A DNA stretch of 64,000 nucleotides from Verrucomicrobiia bacterium (GCA_036405135.1 DASWYF010000013.1:293538-357537), one strand, 5' to 3'. Positions 20,206 through 33,781 are shown, numbered from the stretch's first letter. The notes: a model not told the origin generated them from the letters alone. A program made the numbers and translations.

Positions 20206-20227
20206 GAGTTATCCAAGATTTTTGGCC

Positions 20228-20886: not shown

Positions 20887-20962
20887 TGCGGGGAACTCGA
20901 CTGAGACAGAGGGGAGTTTCATAAGCTCTTACAGGTGGGTTTGATTCCCACCTCCGCAACCA
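20887..20962 (+). tRNA. tRNA-Met(CAT), T-loop TTTGATT
   Basis: Acceptor TGCGGGG pairs with CTCCGCA (one GU), then A73 and encoded CCA. Anticodon loop TTCATAA; T-stem GTGGG/CCCAC with loop TTTGATT. No GG in the D-loop. It pairs at 1-72, so it is not a typical initiator; it could also be a lysidine-type tRNA-Ile. The only array member that keeps T55. Confidence 0.8.
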
Positions 20963-20969
20963 ATTTCAA

Positions 20970-21059
20970 GGGAATCGATCCAGCCGCCCGACTGTAAATC
21001 GGGTGTCATCAAACAAGGTTGGAAGTGACGAACTGGAGCGTTACCAGCGGCTCCCACCA
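20970..21059 (+). tRNA. tRNA-Tyr(GTA) with truncated D-arm
   Basis: Anticodon stem CCCGA/TCGGG with loop CTGTAAA. A long variable arm (GTCA...TGAC) fits Tyr. The T-loop is AGCGTTA. Only about ten bases lie between the acceptor and anticodon stems, so no normal D-arm can form, and the acceptor GGGAATC/GGCTCCC has an A-C mismatch. CCA is encoded. Confidence 0.65.
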
Positions 21060-21065
21060 TCTTTT

Positions 21066-21155
21066 GAAGGACGATTTTGGATTTACGATTTACGGGGCTG
21101 TGGGCGTTTCAAAACTGCAGTCGATTCGTAAATCGTAAATCCCAATTCGTAAATT
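21066..21155. repeat. Array spacer palindrome, family 1 (GATTTACGATTTACG)
   Basis: GGATTTACGATTTACG and its inverted copy CGTAAATCGTAAATCC enclose about 30 unique bases. The same design recurs at 21,586-21,668, 22,680-22,772 and 32,816-32,898 between tRNAs, with related strings at 41,380 and 63,742. Arms are conserved and loops are not. Confidence 0.75.
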
Positions 21156-21160
21156 TCTCT

Positions 21161-21236
21161 CGGAGTGTAGCTCAGTCTTTAGAGCGCCTGGTTTGGGGCT
21201 AGGAAGTCGCAGGCGAAAATCCTGCCATTCCGACCA
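21161..21236 (+). tRNA. tRNA-Pro(TGG), T-loop CGAAAAT
   Basis: Acceptor CGGAGTG/CATTCCG, D-stem GCTC/GAGC with loop AGTCTTTA (no GG), anticodon loop TTTGGGG, T-stem GCAGG/CCTGC with loop CGAAAAT, A73, CCA. Confidence 0.8.
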
Positions 21237-21246
21237 TTTTAAGAAT

Positions 21247-21323
21247 GCTGCTGTGGCTGAGTGAGATCAGGCGTTCGTCTTCTAAACGAACTAATGCAGG
21301 TGCGAATCCTGCCAGCAGCTCCA
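21247..21323 (+). tRNA. tRNA-Arg(TCT), T-loop TGCGAAT
   Basis: Acceptor GCTGCTG/CAGCAGC perfect, anticodon stem TTCGT/ACGAA with loop CTTCTAA, T-stem GCAGG/CCTGC with loop TGCGAAT, T73, CCA. G replaces T at position 55. Confidence 0.8.
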
Positions 21324-21334
21324 GTTATTTCTTT

Positions 21335-21408
21335 TGCCGGGTAGTGTCAAAGTAGCACGGCGGTCTGTTAAACCGCTTGAACTGGTGCAAGTCCAGTCCC
21401 GGCAGCCA
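21335..21408 (+). tRNA. tRNA-Asn(GTT), T-loop TGCAAGT
   Basis: Acceptor TGCCGGG/CCCGGCA, D-arm GTG-TCAAAGTAG-CAC, anticodon stem GCGGT/ACCGC with loop CTGTTAA, T-loop TGCAAGT, G73, CCA. Confidence 0.8.
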
Positions 21409-21421
21409 TTTCACAGGTTAG

Positions 21422-21498
21422 GCTCGTGTAGCTCAATATATCAGAGCGCGGCGCTTCGAACGCCAGGGTTGGAGGCGAGAATCCTCCCATGAGCACCA
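21422..21498 (+). tRNA. tRNA-Arg(TCG), T-loop CGAGAAT
   Basis: Acceptor GCTCGTG/CATGAGC, D-stem GCTC/GAGC with loop AATATATCA, anticodon loop CTTCGAA, T-stem GGAGG/CCTCC with loop CGAGAAT, A73, CCA. Confidence 0.78.
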
Positions 21499-21504
21499 AT
21501 TTAT

Positions 21505-21580
21505 CAGGGTGTATTGTCAGCAGTAGACGGCCTCCCTCGGAAGGAGGAGGACGCAGGTGCGATTCCTGCCACCCTGACCA
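21505..21580 (+). tRNA. tRNA-Pro(CGG), T-loop TGCGATT
   Basis: Acceptor CAGGGTG/CACCCTG, D-region GTC-AGCAGTA-GAC, anticodon stem CCTCC/GGAGG with loop CTCGGAA, T-stem GCAGG/CCTGC with loop TGCGATT, A73, CCA. Confidence 0.8.
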
Positions 21581-21673
21581 ATCTCAATTACGATTTACGA
21601 TTTACGAAACTTTTGGCGCTTCGGTTGCCTCAGTTGCTTCGTAAATCGTAATTCTAAAATCGTAAATCAGTTC

Positions 21674-21747
21674 CGTCCGATAGCTCAAAAGCAGAGCGCC
21701 CGCCTGATAAGCGGAAGACCACGGAGCGTCACCGTGTCGGACGACCA
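21674..21747 (+). tRNA. tRNA-Ile(GAT), T-loop AGCGTCA
   Basis: Acceptor CGTCCGA/TCGGACG perfect, D-stem GCTC/GAGC with loop AAAAGCA, anticodon loop CTGATAA, T-stem CACGG/CCGTG with loop AGCGTCA, A73, CCA. Confidence 0.8.
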
Positions 21748-21789
21748 TTTTTTCGTTCACTCCATTCAACCCTCAACGAAAGGAACCGT

Positions 21790-21948
21790 ATGTATCGCGA
21801 GACCTCCTATAAGCAGAGCCCTTTGCTGTATCGCCGGAGCTACAAGCCCGGACGCCGCCAGACATTGACGTTCTGTCCGCAACCCTTGCCGACGGTTGTG
21901 CGTGAAGGTGAAGTCAAGCTGCCGCCGATCAAGGGCGTGAAAGAATAA
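21790..21948 (+). CDS. 52-residue basic protein encoded inside tRNA array 1
   Basis: Starts MYRETSYKQSPLLYRRSYKP; AAAGGA lies about six bases before the ATG, a good ribosome site. The protein is basic and rich in Tyr, Arg and Pro, ending EVKLPPIKGVKE. It sits between tRNA-Ile and a set of hairpins, on the tRNA strand, so it may be on the same transcript. The composition suggests RNA or ribosome binding, which is inference. No family recognised. Confidence 0.6.
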   Translation: MYRETSYKQSPLLYRRSYKPGRRQTLTFCPQPLPTVVREGEVKLPPIKGVKE

Positions 21949-22001
21949 GTTTCCGCCGGTTGCGATTACCCGCAGTCGGCGACCCGGGTGGGGAACCCCA
22001 A

Positions 22002-22029
22002 GGGCTGATGGTGGCGACATCATCAGCCC
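22002..22029 (+). terminator. Hairpin after the 52-residue gene
   Basis: GGGCTGATG and CATCAGCCC form a 9-bp stem with a 10-base loop, 53 bases after the stop codon. It has no T-run, so it may be a processing or stability hairpin rather than a terminator. Confidence 0.45.
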
Positions 22030-22096
22030 CATGAATTTTACGGTTAATCGCTGATCAGTGCCCAAAGACATCTTTCCAAGGGGGCAAAAGCGATAA

Positions 22097-22140
22097 TGGA
22101 ACGGTGGCAATCAGATCGATCCGCGATTGCCGCCGTTCCA
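22097..22140 (+). other. 16-bp hairpin ending in CCA
   Basis: TGGAACGGTGGCAATC pairs with GATTGCCGCCGTTCCA (one GU) around AGATCGATCCGC. The 3' end reads TTCCA, like an acceptor minihelix, possibly by chance. Confidence 0.5.
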
Positions 22141-22154
22141 GTTCTATTTAGTGA

Positions 22155-22503
22155 CGCTGGATGGTGTCGGAAGCCACTTACTGAATAGGAGGAGGCCGCG
22201 CAGGTTGGGCAAGGACCGTATGGCTAGGCGCGACGAAGGAGAATATCCTATATGGATCTTCGACTGAGGAGCAACAACGCCAGACGGTCCTTGCCCAATC
22301 TGCCCGGAGGGGTGCGAGTCTTTTTTGAGGAGACTTCGTTGTTCGTCAGTCAGAGATCTCTACGGATATCTTTCTTCCTCACGCCTCGTCTCCTCAAAAA
22401 ATCCTGCGCAACGCGGCCTCCTCCTATTCAGCAAGTGGCTTCTAAGTCTGCACGGCTGGCTGAAGCCCGGCAGGTGTCGGCGCAATTCCGACTCCAGCGG
22501 CCA
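22155..22503 (+). ncRNA. tRNA-like gene with a large nested-palindrome insertion
   Basis: The ends look like an array tRNA: CGCTGGA (22155-22161) pairs with TCCAGCG (22493-22499), then G73 and CCA, with T-stem GTCGG/CCGAC and loop CGCAATT (again G55). Between them is a 31-bp stem with one mismatch (22170-22200 with 22412-22442) enclosing a perfect 15-bp stem (22205-22219 with 22284-22298) and a perfect 14-bp stem (22321-22334 with 22388-22401), a three-arm structure. I could not place an anticodon. It has no group I core and no tmRNA features. It may be a tRNA disrupted by a palindromic element, or a new RNA type. Confidence 0.6.
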
Positions 22504-22507
22504 TTTT

Positions 22508-22592
22508 AGTAGATAGTGGATGGTTGATAGTAGATAGCGAAGTTTTGAAGGCGTTCACCTTCCATCGACTATTCACCATCTACCATCCACAA
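22508..22592. repeat. Array spacer palindrome, family 2 (GTAGATAGTGGATGGTTGATAG)
   Basis: GTAGATAGTGGATGGTTGATAG is inverted as CTATTCACCATCTACCATCCAC around a short loop. A second copy lies at 33,185-33,265 in array 2. Confidence 0.7.
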
Positions 22593-22599
22593 GTTAATC

Positions 22600-22677
22600 G
22601 TCCGTGAATGCAAAGCAGCTCGCGCGCCTGGACTTTCATTCCAGCCCTAGCCGGTGCGAGTCCGGCCACGGATGCCA
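22600..22677 (+). tRNA. tRNA-Glu(TTC), T-loop TGCGAGT
   Basis: Acceptor GTCCGTG/CACGGAT, D-loop containing AAAGCAG, anticodon stem CTGGA/TCCAG with loop CTTTCAT, T-stem GCCGG/CCGGC with loop TGCGAGT, G73, CCA. Confidence 0.78.
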
Positions 22678-22779
22678 CTTTGATTTACGATTTAAGAAGT
22701 ACGATTTACGAAGCGACAGGCAGTTTGGTGCTGCCAATCGGCTCGTAAATCGTAAATCCAAAATCGTAAATCTACGTTT

Positions 22780-22856
22780 GCTTTCAAGGTGTAACAGATC
22801 TGCATGTCTCCCTGCGAAGGAGAAGGCTCATGGTGCAAGTCCATGTGAGAGCACCA
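22780..22856 (+). tRNA. tRNA-Arg(GCG), T-loop TGCAAGT
   Basis: Acceptor GCTTTCA/TGAGAGC, anticodon stem TCTCC/GGAGA with loop CTGCGAA, T-stem CATGG/CCATG with loop TGCAAGT, A73, CCA. A GCG anticodon is unusual for bacterial Arg, which normally uses ACG read as ICG. Confidence 0.75.
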
Positions 22857-22943
22857 ATTCAAGGGACGAGGAAGAAGTGCGAGGGGCGAATTAAAACAGG
22901 CCCAGTTCGGACTTCTCACTTCTGACCTCGCCCCTTTCTGAAT

Positions 22944-23018
22944 GGTGATCATGATGTAAGAGCAGCATCACGCCCTGTGAAGGCGTTTGTGCCGGTGCAA
23001 ATCCGGTTGATCACCCCA
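22944..23018 (+). tRNA. tRNA-His(GTG), T-loop TGCAAAT
   Basis: Acceptor GTGATCA/TGATCAC perfect, extended by G-1 opposite C73, the His identity pair. D-arm GATG-TAAGAGCAG-CATC, anticodon loop CTGTGAA, T-loop TGCAAAT, CCA. Confidence 0.82.
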
Positions 23019-23130
23019 ATTTCAAAACAGAGAGAGCTGTGCATTGGAGCGATAACTTTTCGTTGTGCTTCAATGGCGTTGTCCTAGAGTCCGCTCCATC
23101 TGTTCAACGGCCTGTCCGCCTTTGATTGGT

Positions 23131-23997
23131 ATGTTAAACCTAGAAGAAGCCGTCCGCGTGAATCCGAGCATGAGAAAGCTCGAGATCGGCGATTTTCTTT
23201 TTGCGGAATACACCTGCGGCATCGGCGCGGAAAAACTAGGTCTTTGGTCGCCCACGGATTATCTCGTGAATGTCGTTACGGGTAAGAAGACTTGGCGGAC
23301 CGCAGAGGCCACCTGGGTGGCCAAGCCGGGCGAGAGTTTGTTTTTCAAAAAAGGCGCAGCCATCGTCGATCAGCATTTCGAAGTGGATTTCTGTCTGCTC
23401 ATGTTTTTCATTCCGGATCACGTGGTGAAAGGCATCGTGCAGGAAGTGGCCGCTAGTCTGCAGCCGATCCCGAGGAAAGTGACGCCGATCACCTCCGCCG
23501 CCTGGGTGGAGAATGATGTGGCGTTGCTCGCCTTCCTGCAGTCCATGCGCAGTTATTTCACGGCGAAAGAAAAACCTTCGGAACCATTGCTGCGCCTGAA
23601 ACTGAAGGAGCTGGTCATCAGTATTCTTACCAGTGGAAAGAATCCGGAACTCGCCGCCTACTTCCGCAAGATGGGCGAATGCGAAGCTCCCTCGGTCGCA
23701 GAGATCATGGAAGAAAATTTCCGGTTCAATCTTTCGCTCGAAGAATACGCCAAGCTGTGTCATCGCAGCCTGTCTTCTTTTAAGCGCGAATTTCAAACGG
23801 CGTTTCATGAGTCTCCCGGCAAATGGTTGCTGGGCCGTCGTTTGGATTATGCCGCTGGCCTGTTGCGCAATTCGCCGCAGAACGTCACGGCCATCGCGTT
23901 TGAAAGCGGCTTCGAAGATGTCTCGCACTTCAGCCGCGTATTCAAGGATCGCTTCGGCGATTCTCCGGTTGCCTATCGTCAGAATTCTGTGAGCTGA
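23131..23997 (+). CDS. AraC-family transcriptional regulator
   Basis: The start is taken at MLNLEEAVRVNPSMRKLEIG (23131); an upstream ATG at 23065 adds 22 residues of poor composition. The 288-residue protein has an N-terminal cupin-like sensing domain and a C-terminal AraC double helix-turn-helix (SLEEYAKLCHRSLSSFKREF ... NVTAIAFESGFEDVSHFSRV). It precedes an AhpD-like gene on the same strand (about 110 bases), probably its target. The ligand is unknown. Confidence 0.85.
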   Translation: MLNLEEAVRVNPSMRKLEIGDFLFAEYTCGIGAEKLGLWSPTDYLVNVVTGKKTWRTAEATWVAKPGESLFFKKGAAIVDQHFEVDFCLLMFFIPDHVVKGIVQEVAASLQPIPRKVTPITSAAWVENDVALLAFLQSMRSYFTAKEKPSEPLLRLKLKELVISILTSGKNPELAAYFRKMGECEAPSVAEIMEENFRFNLSLEEYAKLCHRSLSSFKREFQTAFHESPGKWLLGRRLDYAAGLLRNSPQNVTAIAFESGFEDVSHFSRVFKDRFGDSPVAYRQNSVS

Positions 23998-24109
23998 GGC
24001 TGAACCGCTCAGTCAATGGATTGAACCGCGCAGCAAAGCGGCGTTTCTCTTCCTTTCTTATCATGCTGGCCGATGAATGGGTTGCCCATCATCAGACCGA
24101 AAGCTGCAT

Positions 24110-24415: not shown

Positions 24416-24567
24416 CAAATTATCCCGCCTGATGTGCCGAGCATGGGCTGTGATCGTGTGCCGGTTCATGAACCGGGCATCTGGCGGATAAGCATTTTTT
24501 GCCGTTGGTTCGATAGCTCTCAAAAACATCGGTGGAATGGAAGCTGCTAAGTAGCGGTTGCTCTTAT

Positions 24568-27012
24568 ATGAAGAAAGTCTTGGTTTTGTGGGTGTTTTTG
24601 TGGGCTTTAACGGTACAAGCGGGACCGACGAATGCCATCATGTTCGTCACGCAGGTGCCGATTCCGGGCGATTTCACGAGCATCGGCTCAACTTTTGGAA
24701 ATCACAGTGCAGACTTGGAAAGCTGCGGTCGTGGCGGCGATCTCTACATCCGCTACCCGAATGGCGAGGTGAAAAACCTGACGCGTGCCGCTGGTTTCGG
24801 TAAGTGGGGAGATCAGAGGACGAATGGTATCGCCGTGCGTCAACCCGCTGTCCATTGGGATGGCACGAAGGCTGTCTTCAGCATGGTGGTGGGCGCACCG
24901 AAGAAACAGTATGACTACAATACGGTGGCCTACTGGCAGCTTTACGAGATCACGAATTTCACGGACCCGTCAGCGACTCCGGTCATCACGAAGGTGCCGA
25001 ATCAACCGGCGAATTATAATAATATCTCGCCGATTTACGGAACGGATGATCGCATCATCTTCACGAGCGATCGTCCGCGCAATGGCCAGCGCCATCTCTA
25101 TCCGCAACTGGACGAGTATGAAGAAGCGCCGACGGTGACGGGTATCTGGAGCTTGAATCCGGCGAATGGCGATCTGTTCATCTTGAATCACACACCGAGT
25201 GGTGCGTTCTCGCCCACGATCGATAGCGCGGGTCGCGTGGTGTTCATCCGGTGGGATCACTTGCAGCGCGATCAACAGGCAGATGCCGATTCCGATGGTG
25301 AGATCGTCTACGGCGCTTTCAACTGGAGCAGTGAGGCGACGAACTCGGTGACTACCACGAACGTGACGGAAGTATTTCCGGAGCCGCGTGCCGGTCGCAC
25401 CGACCTCCTCGCCGGAACGCATTTGCGGGGCAATTCGTTCAATCAATTTTTCCCGTGGCAGATCAATGAGGATGGCACCGGTGAAGAAACGCTGAACCAC
25501 GTGGGCCGTCATGAATTGGGCGGCAGCTATCGCAGTGCGGCGTTCGATAACGATTCGAACATCCAGGATCTGTATTATTTCGGTAATAAATTCAATACGA
25601 ACACGATTGAGCACATGTTCCAGATGCGCGAAGACCCGCGCACGCCGGGATTGTTCTACGCCATTGCAGCGCCTGAGTTCGGCACGCACAGTGGAGGTCA
25701 GTTGATCTCCCTCACAGGCGGTACGAACGTGAATGCGAATGCGATGCGCATCGATTATCTCACGCCGCTGGCCACGCGTTTTCCTGCGGATGCGGATGAT
25801 ATTCCCTCCGAACACTCGGGTTTTTATCGCAATCCTTTGATGACCACAGATGGTTATCTCATCGCTTCGCACACGGCGTGGCAGTTGGAGGAGGATGGCG
25901 GTGACTCTTATGAGTTCCCGAGCTCGAAGTATGATTTCCGCCTGAAGATACTGCAGAAGATCGGCAACTTTTATGTGCCGAACTCTGTGTTGACCACGGG
26001 CCTGACCAATCGCGCCACTTACTGGACGCCGGATGATTTCATCACGAACACGAATGTGCTGTGGGAACTCGACCCTGTGGAAGTCGTCGCCCGCACACGT
26101 CCGGTGCATGTGGGCGAGCAGGTGGAAGCGCCAGAACGCACTGCGTTCGAGCTGGCTGGCGTGGATATGGAGAAATTCAAAGACTATCTCCGCACGCATG
26201 AACTGGCGCTGATCGTCAGCCGCGATGTGACCACGCGTGATAAGGGTGATCGTCAGCAGCCGTTCAACTTGCGCGTCAGCGGCACGACACATCAGACGGT
26301 CGGAGCTTCAGGCAAGATCTATGACGTAGCGTGGATGCAACTTTTTCAGGCAGACCAGTTGCGCGGGTTGAATCACGGAAATGTGAATGAGACCGGTTAT
26401 GGCCGTCGCGTGATCGCGCAGCATATGCATGACGCCGCGGTGGATAATCCGACCACGGCACAGACATTGGTGGGCAGCGTGAAGATCGCTCCGGATGGTT
26501 CACAGGCGGCGATTGTGCCAGCTCGTCGAGCGATGACGTGGCAATTGACGGATACCAACGGTGTGGGTGTGGTGCGTGAGCGTTACTGGCTGACCTTTCA
26601 ACCCGGTGAGATCCGCACTTGTGTGAGCTGCCATGGTATCAATCAGAAGTCGCAAGCAAACGAACTGGTGCCGACAAATACGCCGCAAGCATTGGTTCAG
26701 CTCCTGAGCTACTGGAAGACCAATGTCACCACGAAGCAGGATGTGGCGATAGATCAGGCTGCAAAATATTTCCAAGTCACCTTTGTGCGTCGTCCTGCGG
26801 AGACGGGCGTGACCTATCACATCCAGCACTCGACCGATCTGGCGAACTGGACGGATATCGCCAGCTATGCAGGCACGAACATCGTGCTCACGGCACAGGC
26901 GCAGGAAGTCTCCCGGACCGGTTCACCGAATGAGAGCGTCACCGTGCGTGACATCTCGGGGATCAATTCCCACACGCAGAAATATTTGCGAGTGCATGTG
27001 ACGCGACCGTAA
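24568..27012 (+). CDS. Secreted cytochrome, hydrazine-synthase-alpha-like
   Basis: The start is MKKVLVLWVFLWALTVQAG (24568), a clear signal peptide. The 814-residue protein has repeated beta-propeller-like segments (DLYIRYPNGEVKNLTRAAGF; TDDRIIFTSDRPRNGQRHLY) and one c-type haem motif CVSCHG near residue 692, in the layout of hydrazine synthase alpha-subunit-like proteins of planctomycetes and verrucomicrobia. A true hydrazine synthase needs other subunits, none nearby, so the role is probably a different periplasmic redox step. A C-terminal discoidin-like tail (YFQVTFVRRPAETGVTYHIQ) follows. Confidence 0.75.
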   Translation: MKKVLVLWVFLWALTVQAGPTNAIMFVTQVPIPGDFTSIGSTFGNHSADLESCGRGGDLYIRYPNGEVKNLTRAAGFGKWGDQRTNGIAVRQPAVHWDGTKAVFSMVVGAPKKQYDYNTVAYWQLYEITNFTDPSATPVITKVPNQPANYNNISPIYGTDDRIIFTSDRPRNGQRHLYPQLDEYEEAPTVTGIWSLNPANGDLFILNHTPSGAFSPTIDSAGRVVFIRWDHLQRDQQADADSDGEIVYGAFNWSSEATNSVTTTNVTEVFPEPRAGRTDLLAGTHLRGNSFNQFFPWQINEDGTGEETLNHVGRHELGGSYRSAAFDNDSNIQDLYYFGNKFNTNTIEHMFQMREDPRTPGLFYAIAAPEFGTHSGGQLISLTGGTNVNANAMRIDYLTPLATRFPADADDIPSEHSGFYRNPLMTTDGYLIASHTAWQLEEDGGDSYEFPSSKYDFRLKILQKIGNFYVPNSVLTTGLTNRATYWTPDDFITNTNVLWELDPVEVVARTRPVHVGEQVEAPERTAFELAGVDMEKFKDYLRTHELALIVSRDVTTRDKGDRQQPFNLRVSGTTHQTVGASGKIYDVAWMQLFQADQLRGLNHGNVNETGYGRRVIAQHMHDAAVDNPTTAQTLVGSVKIAPDGSQAAIVPARRAMTWQLTDTNGVGVVRERYWLTFQPGEIRTCVSCHGINQKSQANELVPTNTPQALVQLLSYWKTNVTTKQDVAIDQAAKYFQVTFVRRPAETGVTYHIQHSTDLANWTDIASYAGTNIVLTAQAQEVSRTGSPNESVTVRDISGINSHTQKYLRVHVTRP

Positions 27013-27118: not shown

Positions 27119-28888
27119 ATGAGAACTGATATGCACAAAGTCCTGACGGACGACAGATGCTACCGCTGGTCAAAAATCAAACAGGAAAGAAAAGCGAATC
27201 GGACAGAGGACCAGTTGCCCCGTTGTGAGGGGATGAAGCGGTTGCATGGTGTGGGAGGTAAATATTTAAACGGACGTAACGGTCCTCTGAAGCGTTGGTT
27301 GCGTTCCCGATCTGGATATCACTGGGATAAGGTGTTCAGTGAAGCGGCCCAAGTGTTCAAGTTAGATGATTTCGTGAGGAGACAGATGCGGATCAAGCTG
27401 CTGGATATGGTCGAGCGGAATACTTTCATGCGAGATGGGGAGGTTTGGTGCTGTAAACCTAATTCATGGCGCCGGGAGCAGGAAGTGCCAGTGCAAGAAT
27501 TGAGGAGCCGCCGGGATGTTTTCTATGTGCATCCGGAGAGCGGAGTTTTATTGCCCGTGCCAGATAAGCCTCGCGGGCCAAGGATGCTGGAAAGTGAAGA
27601 GAAGAAATTTGGCGGGGTGAAACGGAAACTGCCGAAAGATTTTTTGCTGCTAAAGCTGAAAGGGCATTGGTTCGAATGCCGGATGGTGCGGTATCCGAAA
27701 CGGTGGGAGGTCGCACCTTATGATGTCTTGGTGCGGTTGCCGCTCATCGCTTCTCATGCGAGGGAGCTTTATGGCGAGTCATTCTATTGCATTCGCAAGC
27801 GACAGCTTTCTCGCAAGGAATTGCGCGAGCGTGGGCTGAGCAACTCCAGGTCGGCGGCAGATTGTTTTCTTACGGTCATTGGCGAGCGTTTGCTGGGGAA
27901 AATCCAGCGAGCCAATGGCAATCCTGTGCGGTGCTGGCTTCAGTGCAGAACTGATTTCTGTGCTAAAGCCAGCATCGTGCTAAGTGAAGTAAATATCCAC
28001 ATCAAAGCAGGGAATACCTGCGAAACAAAAACTATGAGAGCTGATATGCACAAGGTGATTTGTGAATCACCACGCGGAGGTCAATATTGGGCGAGGAGGT
28101 TTCCCCGTCCGCAGATAAACTGTGAAGAGGCTCCGAAATACGAGAGCATCACAAAGCCGCATAAACATCGGAAATGGTTCGGCGAACATCTTGGACCATT
28201 GAAGCGCTGGCTCAGGTCAAACGTCGGCCGTCCCTGGAACGATGTCTATAGCGAGGGCAGTCCCATCTTCAAGCCGGACAATGTCGTGCGGGCGCACATC
28301 CGTTTTCATCTGTTGCAGATGGTGAGGCGCAACACGTTCATGCGTGATGGAGAGATCTGGGACCGCGGCGACTGGATGGAGCATAAGTTGAGAGGTGGCA
28401 TCACTTGCTCGCCAGTCTTCTATGTTCATCCTGAATCAGGCTTGCTGTTGGAATCGCATGCCACTTGGAAACAGGAACGCAAGGCTCAACAACAGGCGGA
28501 AAAATTACATGCTGACCATCGTTGGCTGACGGATGACACGATGCTGAAGCAGATCGAAGGTGTTTGGTATGAATTCCGGTTCAAGAAATTACACGATGGA
28601 AATGGGGTCTTTGATCTGCTGGAGCGACGAGTGGTGTTCTCCCATGACGTGGGGCGTGCGGGAGCATGCTATTCAAAACACCAGCTCTCGCATCGGGAAT
28701 TAAAACGTTTTGGCTTGGTCAACCAAGCCACAGTGAAAGCGCGGTCTTCAAGGCATCAAGGTGCTTTGACGACCGCGCTTCATGCTTTTTCATCCCGTTG
28801 GCCGAGCAGTTCAGGCAACAGTTTGCAAAACTGTTTAGATGGGTGCGATTCCCATACGGGATTCCAAGCTTGTGATGGAATGCGCTGA
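27119..28888 (+). CDS. Two-domain unknown protein; frame runs through tRNA-Cys
   Basis: One 589-codon frame made of two homologous units. Unit 1 starts MRTDMHKV (27119) and unit 2 MRADMHKV (28034). Both share GPLKRWLRS, RNTFMRDGE(V/I)W, FYVHPESG(V/L)LL and a Q-L-S-[RH]-[KR]-E-L-K-like end. This N-terminus recalls hypothetical proteins I associate with planctomycetes, from memory. No stop separates the units, so it is either a fusion or two tandem genes with the first stop lost. The last 33 codons overlap tRNA-Cys (28792-28866), so the real C-terminus is doubtful. It may bind RNA; unproven. Confidence 0.6.
   Translation: MRTDMHKVLTDDRCYRWSKIKQERKANRTEDQLPRCEGMKRLHGVGGKYLNGRNGPLKRWLRSRSGYHWDKVFSEAAQVFKLDDFVRRQMRIKLLDMVERNTFMRDGEVWCCKPNSWRREQEVPVQELRSRRDVFYVHPESGVLLPVPDKPRGPRMLESEEKKFGGVKRKLPKDFLLLKLKGHWFECRMVRYPKRWEVAPYDVLVRLPLIASHARELYGESFYCIRKRQLSRKELRERGLSNSRSAADCFLTVIGERLLGKIQRANGNPVRCWLQCRTDFCAKASIVLSEVNIHIKAGNTCETKTMRADMHKVICESPRGGQYWARRFPRPQINCEEAPKYESITKPHKHRKWFGEHLGPLKRWLRSNVGRPWNDVYSEGSPIFKPDNVVRAHIRFHLLQMVRRNTFMRDGEIWDRGDWMEHKLRGGITCSPVFYVHPESGLLLESHATWKQERKAQQQAEKLHADHRWLTDDTMLKQIEGVWYEFRFKKLHDGNGVFDLLERRVVFSHDVGRAGACYSKHQLSHRELKRFGLVNQATVKARSSRHQGALTTALHAFSSRWPSSSGNSLQNCLDGCDSHTGFQACDGMR
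28737..28781 (+). terminator. Hairpin just before tRNA-Cys
   Basis: AAGCGCGGTC and GACCGCGCTT form a 10-bp stem around about 25 bases, followed by CTTTTTC. It lies at the expected natural end of the unit-2 protein and may separate it from tRNA-Cys. Confidence 0.55.
28792..28866 (+). tRNA. tRNA-Cys(GCA), T-loop TGCGATT
   Basis: Acceptor ATCCCGT/ACGGGAT, D-stem GCC/GGC with loop GAGCAGTTCA, anticodon stem ACAGT/ACTGT with loop TTGCAAA, T-stem ATGGG/CCCAT with loop TGCGATT, T73, CCA. It carries the same G55 and AGCAG signature as the arrays although it is about 5 kb from array 1 and 3.6 kb from array 2. Confidence 0.82.
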
Positions 28889-28891
28889 CGA

Positions 28892-29308: not shown

Positions 29309-29382
29309 CGGCGCTAGACAAGCAACGGAGCGGGGTGGAGTCAACTGGCATAATCGATTAAACCGTAGCGCTATTGTCTGAA

Positions 29383-31131
29383 TCAAAATTTTTGCAGCAA
29401 AGCAATGAAGTTGCGCTTGGGTTTATGTCGGGCACGGAGTTGAGCGAGGTAATTGTTGAATTCTTCCTGTCGTTCCAGAGCGTGCATAAGTGAACGGATA
29501 TGTTTAACCAGCTTCGCAGCCTCGGCGTAGGAACTGTTATTTTTCAATTCAATCTGAGCTTCCGCCAGTTTTTGATAGACGGGAATGACATCGGCTGGAT
29601 GTGTGGTTTCCCGTGTCTTGGCGAGTTGCAGCCAGAGCGAATTGTGACAACCGCCGCTGATAGCTTCCTGCCAGGCTGTTTCCAGATCATTTTCCCAGAG
29701 CGCAATCTCCACGAGTAATGAATGGCTGGGAGGATATAAATTCCAAGAGCCGCCTTTGCGGACTTGGAGGGCTTTTTCCGCAGCGATTTTCTCGCGGATA
29801 TGGTCCAATGCTTTGGTTCGCCAAGTAGGCCATTGTTTGACCTTATCGACGTGGTTTTTGAGCAGTTGATAGCGGTCTAGCCTAGGAAAATCGATAAACT
29901 CTGACCAGATGAGTGATAACGCATCATCATGACGATGCGCGCGATGGTATTCATCAGCCAGAAATTCTCTGAGCCTGCCATCCGGGCGTTTAGGGAAAGC
30001 ATTCAGACCTCGCTCCGCCCAAGCGAGTGCTTGGGGATAGTTTTTGGCGGTGCGGTATATTTCTGCGATCTGCAGAAAACAGTAAGGGCTGCTCAAGTCT
30101 TTGGATTTGACCGCCACCACCGCTTCAATGTCGCCCGTTTTTCGGGCGAGAGATTCCATCATGGAAGTGATACGGAAATATTTGGTGAACTTATTGACGT
30201 CGGAATCATTTGGTTTGCGTGCTGGAATTTCCTCCCACTTTTTTTGGGCCAGAGACTGGTAAGTCTTGAGTCCTGAAGGACCGAGGATTTCAGCGTAAAC
30301 TTCGGCCGCCTGATAGAAGGTGTCCCAAGAAGTCTTCATTTCCCAGTTGAAGAGCTTTTCGGCCAAAGCTACTGGATCGGGGCGGGCTTTTTTGCAGGCT
30401 TCGTGATGCAGATCTTGAAAATCATGGAGCAAACTGCTGATTTCTCCATCGGAATCGTCCGCATGGTTAAGGGCGTTTTCAATGGCGGACAAGCCGTGCT
30501 CGGCCAGTTCTATGACTTCAAGGGCATGACCTTTCTTGAGAAGTTCGGCGAGAGAATTGACGACGTTACGCACACCACTGGCAAATCCGCGGGCTGAACG
30601 GTAGTCAACGAAGCCATGTATATGAGTAGCGCGGTTGATGGCATCACGGTAGGATTCAACATTGATTTTTTTCCCGGAAGTGCTGATTGCCTGCAAGAGG
30701 AGCTTCTCGCGCAGGATATGATCTTTGGCGGCTTGATCGAGGAGCAGATTGATCAAATATTCCTTGTCCTGGCGGGCCAGCCAATCACGCGCATCTTTCA
30801 ATGTGACGGTAGGTGTGGAAGATGATTTTTTCCCGTTATTGCGATTGGCAATCCAAGTGAGGCCGACTGCGACGCAATGTTTGCAGAAGGTTCCATCCTC
30901 ACCCATGGGGCAGGTGCAATCGTAGGCCAGTTCATTGGCATCGACCCAAAGTTCGACGGTGTAGTTTTCCGTGCCAGAGACCTGAGCGGTGATCCGGTGA
31001 TTAAACTCCACCAAGTTATGCACGGCACCAGATCGGGCGTAGGCATTACCGCGCTGAAACGATTGTGAACCTGAGCAGCGTTGAAGGTTCTCTCGGGTGA
31101 CAAGGTCGGCCAGATCACGGGTCGCAGGCAT
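29383..31131 (-). CDS. SWIM zinc-finger protein
   Basis: A 582-residue protein with a SWIM zinc finger at about residues 75-95 (CTCPMGEDGTFCKHC: C-x-C-x(n)-C-x-H/C). The rest is helical repeats resembling TPR-like arrays (WERGLNAFPK, SYAEAAKLVKHIR). Such stand-alone SWIM proteins are common in verrucomicrobia and usually lie near Swi2/Snf2 helicases; none is visible here. The function is protein or nucleic-acid binding by inference. Confidence 0.8.
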   Translation of the reverse strand: MPATRDLADLVTRENLQRCSGSQSFQRGNAYARSGAVHNLVEFNHRITAQVSGTENYTVELWVDANELAYDCTCPMGEDGTFCKHCVAVGLTWIANRNNGKKSSSTPTVTLKDARDWLARQDKEYLINLLLDQAAKDHILREKLLLQAISTSGKKINVESYRDAINRATHIHGFVDYRSARGFASGVRNVVNSLAELLKKGHALEVIELAEHGLSAIENALNHADDSDGEISSLLHDFQDLHHEACKKARPDPVALAEKLFNWEMKTSWDTFYQAAEVYAEILGPSGLKTYQSLAQKKWEEIPARKPNDSDVNKFTKYFRITSMMESLARKTGDIEAVVAVKSKDLSSPYCFLQIAEIYRTAKNYPQALAWAERGLNAFPKRPDGRLREFLADEYHRAHRHDDALSLIWSEFIDFPRLDRYQLLKNHVDKVKQWPTWRTKALDHIREKIAAEKALQVRKGGSWNLYPPSHSLLVEIALWENDLETAWQEAISGGCHNSLWLQLAKTRETTHPADVIPVYQKLAEAQIELKNNSSYAEAAKLVKHIRSLMHALERQEEFNNYLAQLRARHKPKRNFIALLQKF

Positions 31132-31373
31132 AAAAAGGCGCGTCGAAGGTCTAAATGAGATGGGCGCTCCCGCAAGCGGGATTAATAGGCTCTAATGAGC
31201 ATGTCCTGACGCCCCGGCAGCTATGATCTCAAAGCCGGAATTGGGACCGAGACTCTTTCGACGCGCTATTATTCTCTTAGCATTATCGCGTAGAATCACA
31301 AGCGTGATTTCTGCCAGCGCGACTGATCTGCGCTTGTGCGAATGGGTAGATTCGGGCAGAAACCGGGTCAGCC
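31132..31373. other. Intergenic between SWIM protein and lipoprotein
   Basis: No gene. It holds a short palindrome CCCGCAAGCGGG (about 31,166-31,177) and no recognisable promoter pair. A 64-codon minus-strand ORF here has no supporting evidence. Confidence 0.4.
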
Positions 31374-32267
31374 ATGCACCAGCCATCTGACATTTGCAGA
31401 ATGTTTCTAAGCTTGGTGTTGGTATTCAGTGTCATCGGCTGCGCCACTCAGTCTTCCTCCATGAAACCGAAATATTACGGTTACACTTTGGGCTTCGATT
31501 CACCGGAGGATGCGGCTATGCAAGCGCAGTTGGAGGGAATTGATACAGCCTTGCGCGAGAAACACGGCATGAAGCCGGAGCAGACGATGGTAGGGGTGCT
31601 GGATTTGCGGACGTTGCGGCTGGCGATGTTGCGGCCGGATAAGATGGAGTATGCGGCCAGTGTGCCGAAGGTTGGCATCTTGCTCGCTTACTTTCAGCTG
31701 CATCCGGAAGCGGTGACGAATCTTCCGGCGCAGACGAAGCATGAGATGGGCTTGATGGCGAAGGCGTCGAGTAATGAGATGGCAGCGAAATTTTCGCAAG
31801 CGATGGGTTTGAAACAGGTGCAACAGGTGCTGAACAGTTACGGTCTGTATGACACGAATCACGGTGGCGGCATCTGGGTGGGGAAGCACTACAGCAAGGA
31901 AGGGGAGCGCATCCCAGACCCGATCGGCAATGTTTCCCACGGGGCGACGGTGCGGCAGTTGTTGCGCTATTTCCTCTGGCTGGAGCAAGGGAAGTTGGTG
32001 TCGCCAGAAGCATCTAAGCTGATGCGAGAGATTTTTGGATCGCCAGAGATACCGCATGATCAAATCAAGTTCGTGAAAGGACTGAGCGGCCGAGAGGTGC
32101 GAATCATCCGCAAGTGGGGCTCGTGGCAGACATGGCTGCATGACAGCGCGGTTATCACGGGGGCGGATCGGCACTACATCCTCGTAGCGCTGACGAATCA
32201 TCCAAAGGGGGATGCGTATTTGGAGGAGCTGGCACGGGCAGTGGATGATTTGTTCTCCAATCAATAA
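31374..32267 (+). CDS. Lipoprotein, class A beta-lactamase-like serine hydrolase
   Basis: A 297-residue protein with a lipoprotein signal (FLSLVLVFSVIGCA; a start at MFLSL, 31401, is equally possible). Residues ASVPK provide the S-x-x-K nucleophile motif, SSN matches the SxN box and KWGS stands where KTG is expected. This fits class A beta-lactamase/D,D-peptidase-like hydrolases, but the altered last motif makes penicillin hydrolysis uncertain. It may act on peptidoglycan in the periplasm. Confidence 0.75.
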   Translation: MHQPSDICRMFLSLVLVFSVIGCATQSSSMKPKYYGYTLGFDSPEDAAMQAQLEGIDTALREKHGMKPEQTMVGVLDLRTLRLAMLRPDKMEYAASVPKVGILLAYFQLHPEAVTNLPAQTKHEMGLMAKASSNEMAAKFSQAMGLKQVQQVLNSYGLYDTNHGGGIWVGKHYSKEGERIPDPIGNVSHGATVRQLLRYFLWLEQGKLVSPEASKLMREIFGSPEIPHDQIKFVKGLSGREVRIIRKWGSWQTWLHDSAVITGADRHYILVALTNHPKGDAYLEELARAVDDLFSNQ

Positions 32268-32470
32268 ATCGGTAGCGAGATGGGGAAAGACTCTGCCGAG
32301 CCCCGACATTCCCTTGAAGTGCCCGTAGTTAGATTGCAGGGACAAGGAGCAGTAAGAGTTGAGGTTTTCAGCGTCTTACCATTGCCAGAGTAACCGTATC
32401 GATTTGTTCATCTGCTCAAGTCTGGCAAGGGCTCGACAGAGTCTCGCCCTACCATTCATACAAATTTTCC

Positions 32471-32545
32471 CGGGCATAGGTGTTGATAGATACACGCCGG
32501 TCTTCCAAACCGGATTACAGGGAGCGTTACCCTGATGCCCGTCCA
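32471..32545 (+). tRNA. tRNA-Gly(TCC), T-loop AGCGTTA
   Basis: Acceptor CGGGCAT/ATGCCCG perfect, D-stem GTGT/ACAC with loop TGATAGAT, anticodon stem CCGGT/ACCGG with loop CTTCCAA, T-stem CAGGG/CCCTG with loop AGCGTTA, T73, CCA. Confidence 0.8.
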
Positions 32546-32552
32546 TCCATTT

Positions 32553-32632
32553 TCCCAAGTGAGCCAGAGGAGCGATCTAGACCTCGCACGGTCGAATTAA
32601 TGATCGGCATCCTCGGCTCGGTGCGCTTGGGA
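32553..32632 (+). ncRNA. 80-nt long hairpin RNA in array 2
   Basis: TCCCAAG pairs with CTTGGGA at the ends. Inside, GAGCC/GGCTC, GAGGA/TCCTC, GCGATC/GATCGGC and GACC/GGTC stack as a bulged hairpin rather than a cloverleaf. No CCA and no T-loop. Size and position match a tRNA slot, so it may be a decayed tRNA or a structured small RNA. Confidence 0.45.
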
Positions 32633-32644
32633 GATCCTTTTCTT

Positions 32645-32725
32645 TGTCATGCGGGCGGCAGGTGCTTGCTCAGGACTTCACAGGCCTGAGTGCGATGGTT
32701 CAAGTCCATCCCCGCGTGGCAAAGA
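32645..32725 (+). ncRNA. tRNA-like hairpin with canonical T-loop and 13-bp stem
   Basis: TTTGTCATGCGGG pairs along 13 positions with CCCGCGTGGCAAA. Inside are a D-like arm GCA-GGTGCT-TGC with GG, an anticodon-like arm CTCAGG/CCTGAG whose 10-base loop contains TTCACA, and a T-stem GATGG/CCATC with the standard loop TTCAAGT. No CCA. The loop could present TCA or CAC. Unlike its neighbours it has normal elbow motifs. Confidence 0.45.
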
Positions 32726-32738
32726 GGTTTCTATTCAT

Positions 32739-32814
32739 GCTTCGGGAACTCGAGCAGCAGAGTGTCTGTCTCTTAAACAGATATGTCAGGGTGCAAGTCC
32801 CTGCCGAAGCACCA
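32739..32814 (+). tRNA. tRNA-Lys(CTT), T-loop TGCAAGT
   Basis: Acceptor GCTTCGG/CCGAAGC, D-stem CTC/GAG with loop GAGCAGCA, anticodon stem TCTGT/ACAGA with loop CTCTTAA, T-stem CAGGG/CCCTG with loop TGCAAGT, A73, CCA. Confidence 0.82.
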
Positions 32815-32904
32815 ATTTGATTTACGATTTTGGATATACGAATGACGAGCGGTTGATGGGTTTCTTCTGTCTCGTAAATCGTAAATCCAAAATCGTAATT
32901 CTTC

Positions 32905-32988
32905 CGGTGTGTGGTTAACCCCGAATAGCAGAGGGGACAGTCTTAGAAACTGTGAGCCTTGGAGGTGCAAGTCCTCCCACGCCGACCA
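32905..32988 (+). tRNA. tRNA-Leu(TAG), T-loop TGCAAGT
   Basis: Acceptor CGGTGTG/CACGCCG, then an unusually long seven-base linker, D-stem CCCC/GGGG with loop GAATAGCAGA, anticodon stem ACAGT/ACTGT with loop CTTAGAA. The variable region is short (GAGCCTT-like) where Leu normally has a long arm. T-stem GGAGG/CCTCC with loop TGCAAGT, A73, CCA. Confidence 0.75.
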
Positions 32989-32995
32989 ACTTTTG

Positions 32996-33078
32996 AGGGT
33001 TTCGAGTTTGAAGTTTCTGGTTTCGGGTTGTGTGCGGCATCAACTCGTAACGCAAAACTCATAACCCGGAACTTACGT
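32996..33078. repeat. Array spacer palindrome, family 4 (GTTTCGAGTTTC)
   Basis: TTTCGAGTTTGAAGTTTCTG is followed by inverted ACTCGTAACGCAAAACTCATAACCC-type sequence (shown in part). A second copy is at 33,361-33,445, and a fragment lies near 383-418 in the mobile element. Confidence 0.6.
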
Positions 33079-33083
33079 TAATC

Positions 33084-33175
33084 GGAGGGTCAACCAGACG
33101 AGCGTGCTGGCGCTGTTTGCTAAACAGTGGGTTCCCCGTTCGGGGGATGTGGTGCAAGTCCACGGCCCTCCGCCA
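33084..33175 (+). tRNA. tRNA-Ser(GCT), T-loop TGCAAGT
   Basis: Acceptor GGAGGGT/GCCCTCC, D-stem CCAG/CTGG, anticodon stem GCTGT/ACAGT with loop TTGCTAA, long variable arm TCCCC-GTTC-GGGGGA as expected for Ser, T-stem TGTGG/CCACG with loop TGCAAGT, G73, CCA. Confidence 0.8.
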
Positions 33176-33268
33176 TTTCAGTTTTGTAGATAGTGGATAG
33201 AGGATGGTTGATAGTGTGAGTGGTGCTTCCGTCTATCAACGATTCACTCTCAACCATCAACTAAGTTT

Positions 33269-33356
33269 TGCCACCTCTGATCGCGAAGTAGATCGAGCGG
33301 TCCATGTTGACGGATGAAGCCGGTGGAAGAGACCGGCCAGGGGTGTGCCCTTTTTC
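33269..33356 (+). ncRNA. Candidate small RNA with two hairpins and T-run
   Basis: GCCGGT/ACCGGC (33319-33337) is followed by a second short stem around GGGTGTGCCC and TTTTT (33351-33355), a terminator-like end. The upstream 50 bases contain GATCGC/AGATCG pairing. It is flanked by array spacers and looks like a separate small RNA gene, not a cloverleaf. Confidence 0.45.
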
Positions 33357-33459
33357 ACTAATGGTTTCGGGTTTGGTGTTTCTTGTTTCGAGTTGTCTGC
33401 GTTCGGAGGCTCGACGCGAAACGGGAAACTAGGAACTCGTAACTTGTCGCTTTGCGACT

Positions 33460-33536
33460 GGAGCTGAAGCCACAGCAGACCGGCATCGGACTTTTAATCC
33501 GATAAGGTGAGGTTGCAACTACCTCCGGCTCCACCA
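33460..33536 (+). tRNA. tRNA-Lys(TTT), T-loop TGCAACT
   Basis: Acceptor GGAGCTG/CGGCTCC, D-stem GCC/GGC with loop ACAGCAGACC, anticodon stem TCGGA/TCCGA with loop CTTTTAA, T-stem GAGGT/ACCTC with loop TGCAACT, A73, CCA. Confidence 0.8.
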
Positions 33537-33551
33537 GTTTTTAAAGAAATT

Positions 33552-33612
33552 TAGAATGAAGAAGTGAGAATGTAGAAGGTGCAGTTTTCTACGTTCTTAA
33601 TTCTTCATTCTG
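33552..33612. repeat. Array spacer palindrome, family 3 (AGAATGAAGAA)
   Basis: AGAATGAAGAAGTGAGAATG is inverted as TTCTTAATTCTTCATTCTGG-like arms. A counterpart occurs at about 20,811-20,883 before array 1. Confidence 0.65.
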
Positions 33613-33621
33613 GATTTGTTT

Positions 33622-33695
33622 CGCCCGGTGATGAAACAGGATCATGTCTGTCCTACAAACAGAACTTGAGGGTGCGATTCCTTCCCGGGTGACCA
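33622..33695 (+). tRNA. tRNA-Val(TAC), T-loop TGCGATT, C33
   Basis: Acceptor CGCCCGG/CCGGGTG, D-stem GAT/ATC with loop GAAACAGG, anticodon stem TCTGT/ACAGA with loop CCTACAA, so position 33 is C rather than the near-universal T. T-stem GAGGG/CCTTC with loop TGCGATT, A73, CCA. Confidence 0.75.
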
Positions 33696-33706
33696 TTTTG
33701 CAAAGA

Positions 33707-33781
33707 TGCCTCGTGGCGTAAAGAGCAGCGCGACGGTCTCTGAAACCGCAGGACTTGGTGCAATTCCAGGCGAGGCAGCCA
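33707..33781 (+). tRNA. tRNA-Gln(CTG), T-loop TGCAATT
   Basis: Acceptor TGCCTCG/CGAGGCA, D-stem GCG/CGC with loop TAAAGAGCAG, anticodon loop CTCTGAA, T-stem CTTGG/CCAGG with loop TGCAATT, G73, CCA. Last tRNA of array 2; the HNH gene follows 170 bases later. Confidence 0.8.

Follow-up and report, generated by a model that had tools for sequence, protein, structure and literature searches.

The window analysed here, a 64,000-nt stretch of a Verrucomicrobiia bacterium genome (GCA_036405135.1, DASWYF010000013.1:293538-357537; 5.8 Mb in 52 contigs, with the array stretch on contig 13), contains an array of 21 tRNA genes, all on the + strand, of which 20 are intact and one, for tRNA-Phe, is interrupted. 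Together with their counterparts in related genomes (592 distinct array tRNAs from 53 stretches, window included), these genes nearly all specify tRNAs with an altered elbow, in which A18 and G55 replace G18 and U55, and, judged from its gene content, the array is a near-complete second tRNA set in the best-preserved relatives. We regard it, with a probability of about 0.5, as a back-up tRNA set for ordinary translation under RNA damage, likely marked at the elbow so as to escape agents that recognise this structure. The original prediction for this DNA had proposed about 20 tRNAs with a shared non-canonical elbow; this is borne out by the present count, and the T-loop sequences that it quoted are correct.

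tRNA genes of the array

Standard programs recovered only part of the array: 7 tRNAs were called in the window by ARAGORN and 10 by the Rfam tRNA model over its cut-off (13 with laxer filters). A purpose-built cloverleaf scan, which requires stems, U33, and CCA and ignores the elbow bases, identified 19 tRNAs, to which the class-II tRNA-Tyr and the interrupted tRNA-Phe, read against an intact relative, were added. No hits were obtained in shuffled windows (five plain shuffles in each of two runs) or, at equal cut-off, in the real window outside 20-34 kb. Genome-wide, 58 Rfam tRNA hits were obtained, 12 of them in the array stretch. The 46 located elsewhere, read with ARAGORN, are ordinary tRNAs that specify all 20 amino acids and carry TTC in the T-loop in 46 of 46 cases, i.e. 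the array is present in addition to a set of 46 canonical housekeeping tRNAs. The array genes are arranged in the order Trp, Met, Tyr, Pro, Arg, Asn, Arg, Pro, Ile, Phe (broken), Glu, Arg, and His, followed by Cys and then by Gly, Lys, Leu, Ser, Lys, Val, and Gln, as follows.

20731..20802, + strand: array tRNA-Trp(CCA), the first array tRNA; T-loop GGCAGCA, short D-arm
20887..20962, + strand: array tRNA-Met(CAT) of the initiator type, in this copy with U1-A72; T-loop TTTGATT
20970..21059, + strand: array tRNA-Tyr(GTA); long variable region, T-loop AGCGTTA
21161..21236, + strand: array tRNA-Pro(TGG); T-loop CGAAAAT, D-loop U19 facing A56
21247..21323, + strand: array tRNA-Arg(TCT); T-loop TGCGAAT (ARAGORN and scanner)
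21335..21408, + strand: array tRNA-Asn(GTT); T-loop TGCAAGT (ARAGORN and scanner)
21422..21498, + strand: array tRNA-Arg(TCG); T-loop CGAGAAT (Rfam and scanner)
21505..21580, + strand: array tRNA-Pro(CGG); T-loop TGCGATT (ARAGORN and scanner)
21674..21747, + strand: array tRNA-Ile(GAT); T-loop AGCGTCA (ARAGORN and scanner)
22155..22503, + strand: array tRNA-Phe(GAA); D-loop split by an inverted-repeat element, T-loop CGCAATT
22600..22677, + strand: array tRNA-Glu(TTC); T-loop TGCGAGT (scanner)
22780..22856, + strand: array tRNA-Arg(GCG); T-loop TGCAAGT (Rfam with lax filters and scanner)
22945..23018, + strand: array tRNA-His(GTG); C73, T-loop TGCAAAT (ARAGORN and scanner)
28792..28866, + strand: array tRNA-Cys(GCA); T-loop TGCGATT (ARAGORN and scanner)
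32471..32545, + strand: array tRNA-Gly(TCC); T-loop AGCGTTA (scanner)
32739..32814, + strand: array tRNA-Lys(CTT); T-loop TGCAAGT (Rfam and scanner)
32905..32988, + strand: array tRNA-Leu(TAG), without a long variable arm; T-loop TGCAAGT (scanner)
33084..33175, + strand: array tRNA-Ser(GCT); long variable arm, T-loop TGCAAGT (scanner)
33460..33536, + strand: array tRNA-Lys(TTT); T-loop TGCAACT, T-arm used as the probe for relatives (Rfam with lax filters and scanner)
33622..33695, + strand: array tRNA-Val(TAC); T-loop TGCGATT (Rfam and scanner)
33707..33781, + strand: array tRNA-Gln(CTG), the last of the array; T-loop TGCAATT (ARAGORN and scanner)

The identity of tRNA-Val(TAC) follows from a manual reading of its anticodon arm (TCTGT-CCTACAA-ACAGA), the scanner having reported Arg-CCT through a register slip. 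The D-loop of tRNA-Phe is interrupted at 22170-22442 by an element of ~270 bp that resembles a miniature inverted-repeat transposable element and has 31-nt inverted ends (97%; arms at 22170-22200 and 22412-22442). The gene is whole in G001, a genome of the same genus (L066:6243-6318), where a related copy of the element is found elsewhere than in the Phe gene (C426:4928-5168). Three spacers between tRNA genes (21590-21670, 22683-22775, and 32820-32900) are made of GATTTACGATTTACGA and its complement, and short matches to them are scattered over other parts of this genome and over those of relatives. The long variable arm that is usual in bacterial Leu tRNAs is missing from 63 of 65 array Leu tRNAs, including that at 32905-32988.

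The altered elbow

Of the 592 array tRNAs, 584 have G at position 55, 7 have T, and 1 has C, and 512 have C at position 56. Within the window, G55 is found in 20 of the 21 genes, the exception being the Met gene at 20887 (TTTGATT). The D-loop side was examined in those 221 G55 tRNAs whose D-stem is unambiguous and whose loop has 7 to 8 nt (176 with C56 and 45 without). The last four D-loop bases of this set are mostly A18, G19, C/T20, and A21, and among the tRNAs with C56, G19 is present in 163 of 176 and A18 in 160 of 176. The AGCAG shared by many D-loops corresponds to A18-G19-C20-A21-G22, so that the predicted loss of the D-loop GG is correct for G18, which is replaced by A18, and incorrect for G19, which is contained in AGCAG. 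Likewise, of the two sides of the elbow that were thought to have been lost together, the 18/55 side has indeed changed, but G19-C56 is mostly kept and sometimes swapped for another pair: 26 of the 45 tRNAs without C56 pair 19 with 56 otherwise (U-A, C-G, U-G, or A-U). The 19-56 Watson-Crick fraction is 0.82, compared with 0.61 after permutation (p = 5e-4, a value that is only indicative, as related tRNAs are not independent), whereas 18-55 and 20-55 lie outside the permutation, base 55 being constant in the set. Other permutations gave a small signal for 18-56 (0.077 vs 0.048, p = 0.002) and none for 20-56 or 19-57. An antiparallel pair between base 20 and G55 was also considered and rejected, since position 20 varies (C 85, T 52, A 28, and G 11 in the C56 set).

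Further tertiary and loop contacts are kept: the 53-61 pair is G-C in 95%, T54/A58 is found in 400 of 584, and 15-48 is mostly A-U or G-C. Of the canonical elbow, the 18-55 half is thus missing and the 19-56 half mostly present, and, with A18/G55 replacing G18/U55 while the other contacts persist, only the 18/55 side has changed throughout. By these features, the array tRNAs look like an otherwise ordinary L-shape with an A18/G55 elbow. T-loop types are largely isotype-specific within the order to which the window genome belongs (GGCRGCA in Trp, mostly AGCRTYA in Ile-GAT, and mostly AGCRAAG in Glu-CTC), although exceptions exist.

Decay or misalignment as the origin of the altered elbow is ruled out by the presence of G55 across families and by paired stem changes. 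In every one of the 23 isotypes counted, between 7 and 16 of the 17 stem pairs show at least one change on both sides that preserves pairing, and within the genus 43 of 53 stem-pair changes keep pairing (34 of 41 without Ile, which was left out because its partner looks wrong, with 59% identity); these counts lean towards pairing, as the scanner requires paired stems.

Distribution among related genomes

Of the 293 genomes of the order, 32 have the Lys-TTT T-arm pattern (up to 3 mismatches), compared with 0 of 287 others of the phylum sample. The named contigs with this pattern are 19 contigs of Verrucomicrobia metagenome-assembled genomes (three titled subdivision 3), one of Pedosphaera parvula, and one titled Akkermansia muciniphila. 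When the genomes found at Ro60 loci (11) and at RtcB2 loci (5) and genome G029 were added to those with the Lys pattern, at least 49 of the 293 genomes carried two or more G55 array tRNAs. Gene order is alike in the arrays of many families, and one genome (G027) contains two arrays. The 53-61 pair of Lys-TTT has changed on both sides, from T-A to G-C and to C-G, and is broken once (C-A, G148).

Outside the order but in the same class, G55 tRNAs are present in two genomes of family f66, G473 and G372. Several of those in G473 have AGCA D-loops, and genes for TROVE, HNH, AAA ATPase, RtcB, and LysR proteins are located in or beside its array. On this evidence from gene content and sequence, a second order within the class carries a G55 array version of its own.

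Features related to translation

Pooled over the relatives, the array set covers all 20 amino acids and an initiator type. The array of L169 alone covers 19 amino acids by the scanner, to which a His-GTG with C33 is added by Rfam. The array tRNAs have the features of a chargeable cloverleaf, i.e. paired stems, anticodon and T loops of 7 nt, CCA ends, and the expected discriminator (N73) and identity bases, with exceptions at N73 in part of the His and Gly tRNAs. N73 agrees with the canonical isotype of the host at a rate of 0.855, compared with 0.387 when isotypes are permuted (p = 2e-4). The 51-63 pair, which tunes EF-Tu binding, follows the host isotype more weakly (0.518 vs 0.342, p = 8e-4). 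G3-U70 is present in 6 of 6 Ala-TGC array tRNAs. An unpaired 1x72 is a hallmark of the bacterial initiator tRNA; it is found (U-U, C-C, U-C, or A-C) in 13 of 16 initiator-type Met tRNAs, compared with 7 among 558 other tRNAs and none among 17 elongator-type Met tRNAs, the two Met classes being separated by acceptor sequence. The recurrence of gene order in families, the compensatory stem pairs, the identity bases that follow the isotype, and the separate initiator type all agree with the earlier view of a second, specialised set that has been rewired rather than decayed.

No dedicated EF-Tu accompanies the array: among 46 genomes with and without it, 41 have exactly one match over the cut-off and 4 have none (fragments only). 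Only G001 has two, the second and stronger of which (G001:C190:1767-2954) is perhaps contamination. A class-II tRNA that has the anticodon TAT and whose long variable arm (GTCGCACTAGATGAGTGCC) is strongly conserved was also observed at L169:4567-4660 and at 9 other loci.

Leader RNA upstream of the array

Sequence comparison with relatives revealed a conserved leader between an upstream open reading frame (ORF) and the first tRNA gene, with the following features.

19931..20612, + strand: conserved ~700-nt leader with two intrinsic terminators
20193..20261, + strand: attenuator-like block, consisting of segments GGTAAGCAGT, CCCTGCTTACC, and GTAAGCAGGG followed by a T-run
20454..20605, + strand: leader element 2 (AAGGGCTTCGGAGGAGGTGTGCCC...AAACACC...GGTGTTTGTTCTTTGTTG), ending in terminator 2 (20574-20605)

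Between the families of the relatives, leaders share 70-89% identity over 570-760 nt in many pairs. The window copy is more diverged, with 67.6% identity over 395 nt to that of L069 and 82-83% over ~160-180 nt to those of L156 and L159. In all 19 of 19 aligned leaders, segment 2 of the attenuator-like block can pair alternatively with segment 1 (9-10 of 10 pairs) or segment 3 (8-10 of 10 pairs), and the predicted layout of the first terminator is that of an attenuator. In an alignment of 18 sequences, 72 of the 162 columns of element 2 are invariant, and 10 of its 36 consensus pairs show two-sided changes, located in one junction helix and the terminator stem. Element 2 occurs at one place in the window genome (up to 3 mismatches) and has no exact match in viral contigs. 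Of 21 leaders examined, 20 have the element, and 18 of these contain within it AGGAGGTG, a perfect match to the anti-Shine-Dalgarno sequence; the 3' end of 16S rRNA is for this reason a first candidate for a ligand of the leader. A stretch that by eye resembles the 3' part of element 2 precedes the arrays of G473 and G372.

No Rfam family was found in the leader copy of L069, the single one to which lax filters were applied; a known riboswitch and a second RNase P RNA were accordingly discarded as identities of the leader, a weak archaeal RNase P hit (E = 9) being noise. The leader may control transcription of the array.

Genes neighbouring the array

In many arrays of the relatives, an RtcB ORF (376-439 aa) follows Phe and a gene for Ro60 (TROVE and vWA) precedes Cys. 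TROVE was found in 21 of the 32 Lys-pattern genomes and in 18 of the 261 others (Fisher p = 6e-14), and the TROVE stretch examined contains array tRNAs in 31 of 39 TROVE genomes. The array RtcB tested belongs to TIGR03073, i.e. the RtcB2 branch. In total, 29 of the 293 genomes have an RtcB2 over the TIGR03073 cut-off; 21 of them have an array of at least 4 G55 tRNAs and 5 have 1 to 3. In L068, L069, and L169, RtcB2 lies between the tRNA-Phe gene and a tRNA-Glu or Arg gene.

In most Ro60 stretches examined, RNAs with canonical TTCRA arms are located upstream of Ro60, so that these tRNA mimics keep the canonical T-loop and the decoding set does not. In two of the three stretches scanned with Rfam (L169 and L156), matches to Deinococcus Y RNA (9e-6 and 3e-4) and YrlA (4.5e-7 to 2e-3) were obtained for them, in both cases below gathering scores, which makes them Y RNA candidates; the third (L069) gave tRNA matches only and no Y RNA match. 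Ro60, Y RNA candidates, and RtcB therefore occur together in relatives. Neither RtcA nor RtcR (CARF) was named by Pfam among the ORFs scanned, which were part of the flanking ORFs.

At the 3' end of the array, the following gene was identified.

33951..34535, + strand: array-type HNH protein, 194 aa, 3' of the last Gln tRNA; Pfam HNH_4 (1.6e-8)

Homologues of this protein are present in most array stretches examined, and an HNH ORF also ends the G473 array. Of the 293 genomes, 59 have the close HNH subfamily, and 30 of the 32 Lys-TTT-pattern genomes are among them. As a marker of arrays only, HNH was rejected: 265 of 293 genomes have a match, mostly a paralogue of ~40% identity, and 29 of the 59 close-subfamily genomes are without the Lys-TTT pattern (these 29 were partly checked for arrays).

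Other ORFs were observed at the locus. An 826-aa ORF between the two array blocks of the window (24532-27012) matches the middle domain of hydrazine synthase alpha (3.4e-13). A protein family without a Pfam or NCBIfam match (27119-28888 in the window; L066:6890-7732) is located between His and Ro60/Cys in several arrays. A 148-aa ORF between Ile and Phe (L069:9263-9709 and L070:8764-9210) has a weak, below-cut-off match to the DIP1984 family (6e-5).

Comparison with known systems

Among the nearest counterparts is the trn operon of Anabaena sp. PCC 7120, which comprises 26 tRNAs on megaplasmid delta, is repressed by TrcR and induced by translational stress, and shares its regulon with rtcB (PMC10272220). 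Like the array, it is a second tRNA set beside the housekeeping one, and in Anabaena this set is stress-linked and co-regulated with rtcB; unlike the array, it is under a protein repressor, and leader terminators, Ro60, or Y RNA are not reported for it in the passages considered (PMC10272220). The term T-loop does not occur in that paper (PMC10272220). Set against the induced Anabaena trn operon, a predicted leader with two terminators is no more than suggestive of an inducible array.

Ro60/Rsr, Y RNAs, and RtcB are found together in the rsr-yrlBA-rtcBA operon of Salmonella and in others, and the Salmonella operon is activated by tRNA damage (PMC7790460). The present locus differs in having a tRNA set ('tRNA genes' is not mentioned in that text, PMC7790460) and an RtcB of the RtcB2 (TIGR03073) branch. 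The latter, over the TIGR03073 cut-off, is shared with the RtcB2-PrfH ribosome-repair module; the array RtcB2 of L068, L069, and L169 is flanked by tRNA genes. Around three plasmid RtcB2 genes that were checked, no G55 tRNAs were found save one weak scanner hit. Burroughs and Aravind (2016) reportedly mention a tRNA-like RNA with RNA-repair genes.

In Bxz1-type mycobacteriophages, too, a Ro60 relative and a large array of tRNAs are encoded together. The array of phage LinStu, which also has a Ro-like protein, differs in the T-loop, which is mostly TTC (24 of 27 scored tRNAs), with G55 in 0 of 27. Among the otherwise canonical tRNAs of LinStu (L173), two (Gly-GCC and Asp, 8755-8904) with ATCGTAA T-loops were observed. 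Phage tRNAs have been proposed to evade anticodon nucleases through changes in the anticodon loop (PMC10264068), and mycobacterial tRNA arrays are considered putative anti-defence elements (PMC12803027).

The non-proteinogenic tRNA-Gly of Staphylococcus, tRNA-Pyl, and metazoan mitochondrial tRNAs likewise depart from G18G19 and/or T-psi-C (PMC7609411, PMC4052509). Unlike the array, these are, in the portions of the sources seen, single species or organelle sets rather than a parallel set in a bacterium that keeps its canonical tRNAs. In the literature searched, which was short of most subscription papers, no complete elbow-altered tRNA set was recognised. Novelty as a kind rests on the elbow of the whole set; if the Anabaena trn tRNAs share the G55 elbow, the present set belongs with the Anabaena kind as a further member.

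Proposed function and alternatives

Three components of the proposed back-up role are held with different confidence. The array set is probably translation-competent, as far as this can be read from its genes; we also lean, with less assurance, towards its being part of an RNA-damage response; and evasion as the purpose of the elbow change is a possibility to which we give somewhat less than even weight. In the mechanism that we propose, the leader would keep the array off until antitermination, and RNA damage would switch it on. The array tRNAs would be served by the synthetases of the host and by its one EF-Tu, RtcB2 would repair damaged RNAs, and Ro60 with Y RNAs, whose tRNA-like parts are canonical in the T-loop, would sort them. 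The G55 set would be insensitive to an elbow-dependent step of attack, or to clearance via the canonical elbow, and would sustain protein synthesis during damage. The resistance to tRNA-cleaving toxins raised in the original prediction gains context, and no more than that, from the Ro60, Y RNA candidates, and RtcB2 present within arrays of relatives. A more specific and tentative version treats the elbow as a code: an inducible, complete A18/G55 set with its own initiator, placed behind a terminator-bearing leader and accompanied by Ro60, Y RNAs, and RtcB2, might be swapped in for decoding when tRNAs or ribosomes are attacked and might remain unseen by elbow-reading attackers, modifying enzymes, and clearance, with the Y RNAs acting as canonical-elbow bait.

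Several observations weigh against the back-up role. In the window genome itself, no TROVE (Ro60) match and no RtcB2 over the TIGR03073 cut-off were found, so that the combination of Ro60, Y RNA, and RtcB seen in relatives is lacking. Of the amino acids originally listed as absent, Trp (20731-20802) and, in broken form, Phe are present, but no Ala, Asp, or Thr array genes, which relatives have, were found in this genome; without these and with a broken Phe, the window set cannot work alone. The array tRNA at the Trp position of G001 (L066:4344-4415) has the anticodon GCA, not CCA, which is a sign of erosion. The locus of this genus is partly eroded, and the array may only supplement the normal set or be disappearing. 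In the relatives, 8 of the 39 TROVE stretches hold 0 or 1 array tRNA (G079, G084, G115, G119, G168, G169, G172, and G266), and 3 of the 29 RtcB2 loci are without any. C73 is absent in 14 of 25 array His tRNAs and A73 is present in 17 of 31 array Gly tRNAs, so that identity is not perfect for every isotype, and 19 of the 45 tRNAs without C56, mostly Arg-CCT and some Arg-TCG, have no 19-56 pair. A ribosome-sensing leader peptide over attenuator 1 (MKTCMNI...EVSR, ending on segment 1) is not supported, as differences are equally frequent at its three codon positions (0.42/0.39/0.42). In E. coli, the protection given by RtcB2-PrfH covers colicin E3, which cleaves 16S rRNA, and does not extend to the tRNA-cleaving colicins E5 and D (PMC9223846); RtcB2 may therefore point to rRNA damage. 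Finally, the attacker that would read the elbow in the evasion hypothesis is itself hypothetical.

Of the alternatives, one holds that the array RNAs are decoys or Ro60 clients, i.e. tRNA-like molecules that sequester anticodon nucleases or are dealt with by Ro60, for which translation would not be needed. The sharing of the locus with Ro60 and Y RNA candidates fits this explanation, but discriminator bases, G3-U70, and the initiator mismatch are kept although decoys need none of them, and it is the RNAs beside Ro60, not the array set, that have canonical TTCRA arms; we consider it unlikely. That the array is an ordinary mobile-element or phage tRNA array for codon compensation, with an elbow under relaxed selection, is also unlikely. 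Its patchy occurrence in the order (at least 49 of 293 genomes), a weak phage-integrase-like ORF directly upstream of the leader (18584-19915, - strand), and the Ro-like protein and tRNA array of Bxz1-type phages are in its favour, whereas drift does not account for a change at 18/55 that is alike in nearly all tRNAs and in two orders, and the 27 scored tRNAs of LinStu lack G55. Mobile elements were searched by exact patterns in viral contigs and by Ro60 and RtcB2 protein alone in plasmids; the viral contigs yielded 0 matches for Lys, 0 for Asp, 0 for the leader, and 1, without array tRNA, for Phe. The Phe match is in the 245-kb viral contig L218 (IMGVR_UViG_3300048915_000145), which fits the degenerate Phe T-arm pattern probably by chance, the 4.4 kb examined being without array tRNA.

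Quite unlikely is the use of the array tRNAs as aminoacyl donors outside translation, with an elbow that bars them from the ribosome as in the cell-wall tRNA-Gly of Staphylococcus. The non-proteinogenic tRNA-Gly of Staphylococcus reads GUGC in the T-loop. It has UU or CU in place of G18G19 (PMC4052509). The coverage of all 20 amino acids and an initiator type by the pooled relatives disfavours a use outside translation, which had been raised in the original prediction, and so does the 51-63 pair that tracks the host isotype. The weak EF-Tu T-stem pairs of cell-wall tRNAs (A49-U65 and A51-U63) do not characterise the array, in which A-U is found at 49-65 in 6% and at 51-63 in 16%, compared with 20% and 26% in the canonical set of the host, and no Fem, MprF, or other aminoacyl transferase was found in Pfam scans of part of the locus ORFs. 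A special translation apparatus with an altered ribosome or elongation factor, also suggested earlier, is very improbable: contacts with the elbow are made at the A, P, and E sites (PMC4810234), but nearly all genomes with an EF-Tu match have exactly one, and no ribosomal-protein or translation-factor family was found in the Pfam-scanned locus ORFs (second rRNA copies were not searched).

Implications

The G18-psi55 contact has been deemed near-universal because many machines read it. A whole set with an initiator type, in which almost all other features persist, suggests that the G18-psi55 rule can be dropped wholesale beside ordinary tRNAs, and the array thereby offers a natural test of the purpose of this contact in ribosome transit, RNase P processing, modification by TruB, TrmA, and TrmH, decay, and attack. 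The altered elbow could also help tRNA design. In these bacteria, one conserved locus joins second tRNA operons, Ro60-Y RNA particles, and RtcB repair, and it is a concrete place in which to learn the function of bacterial Ro60 and Y RNAs.

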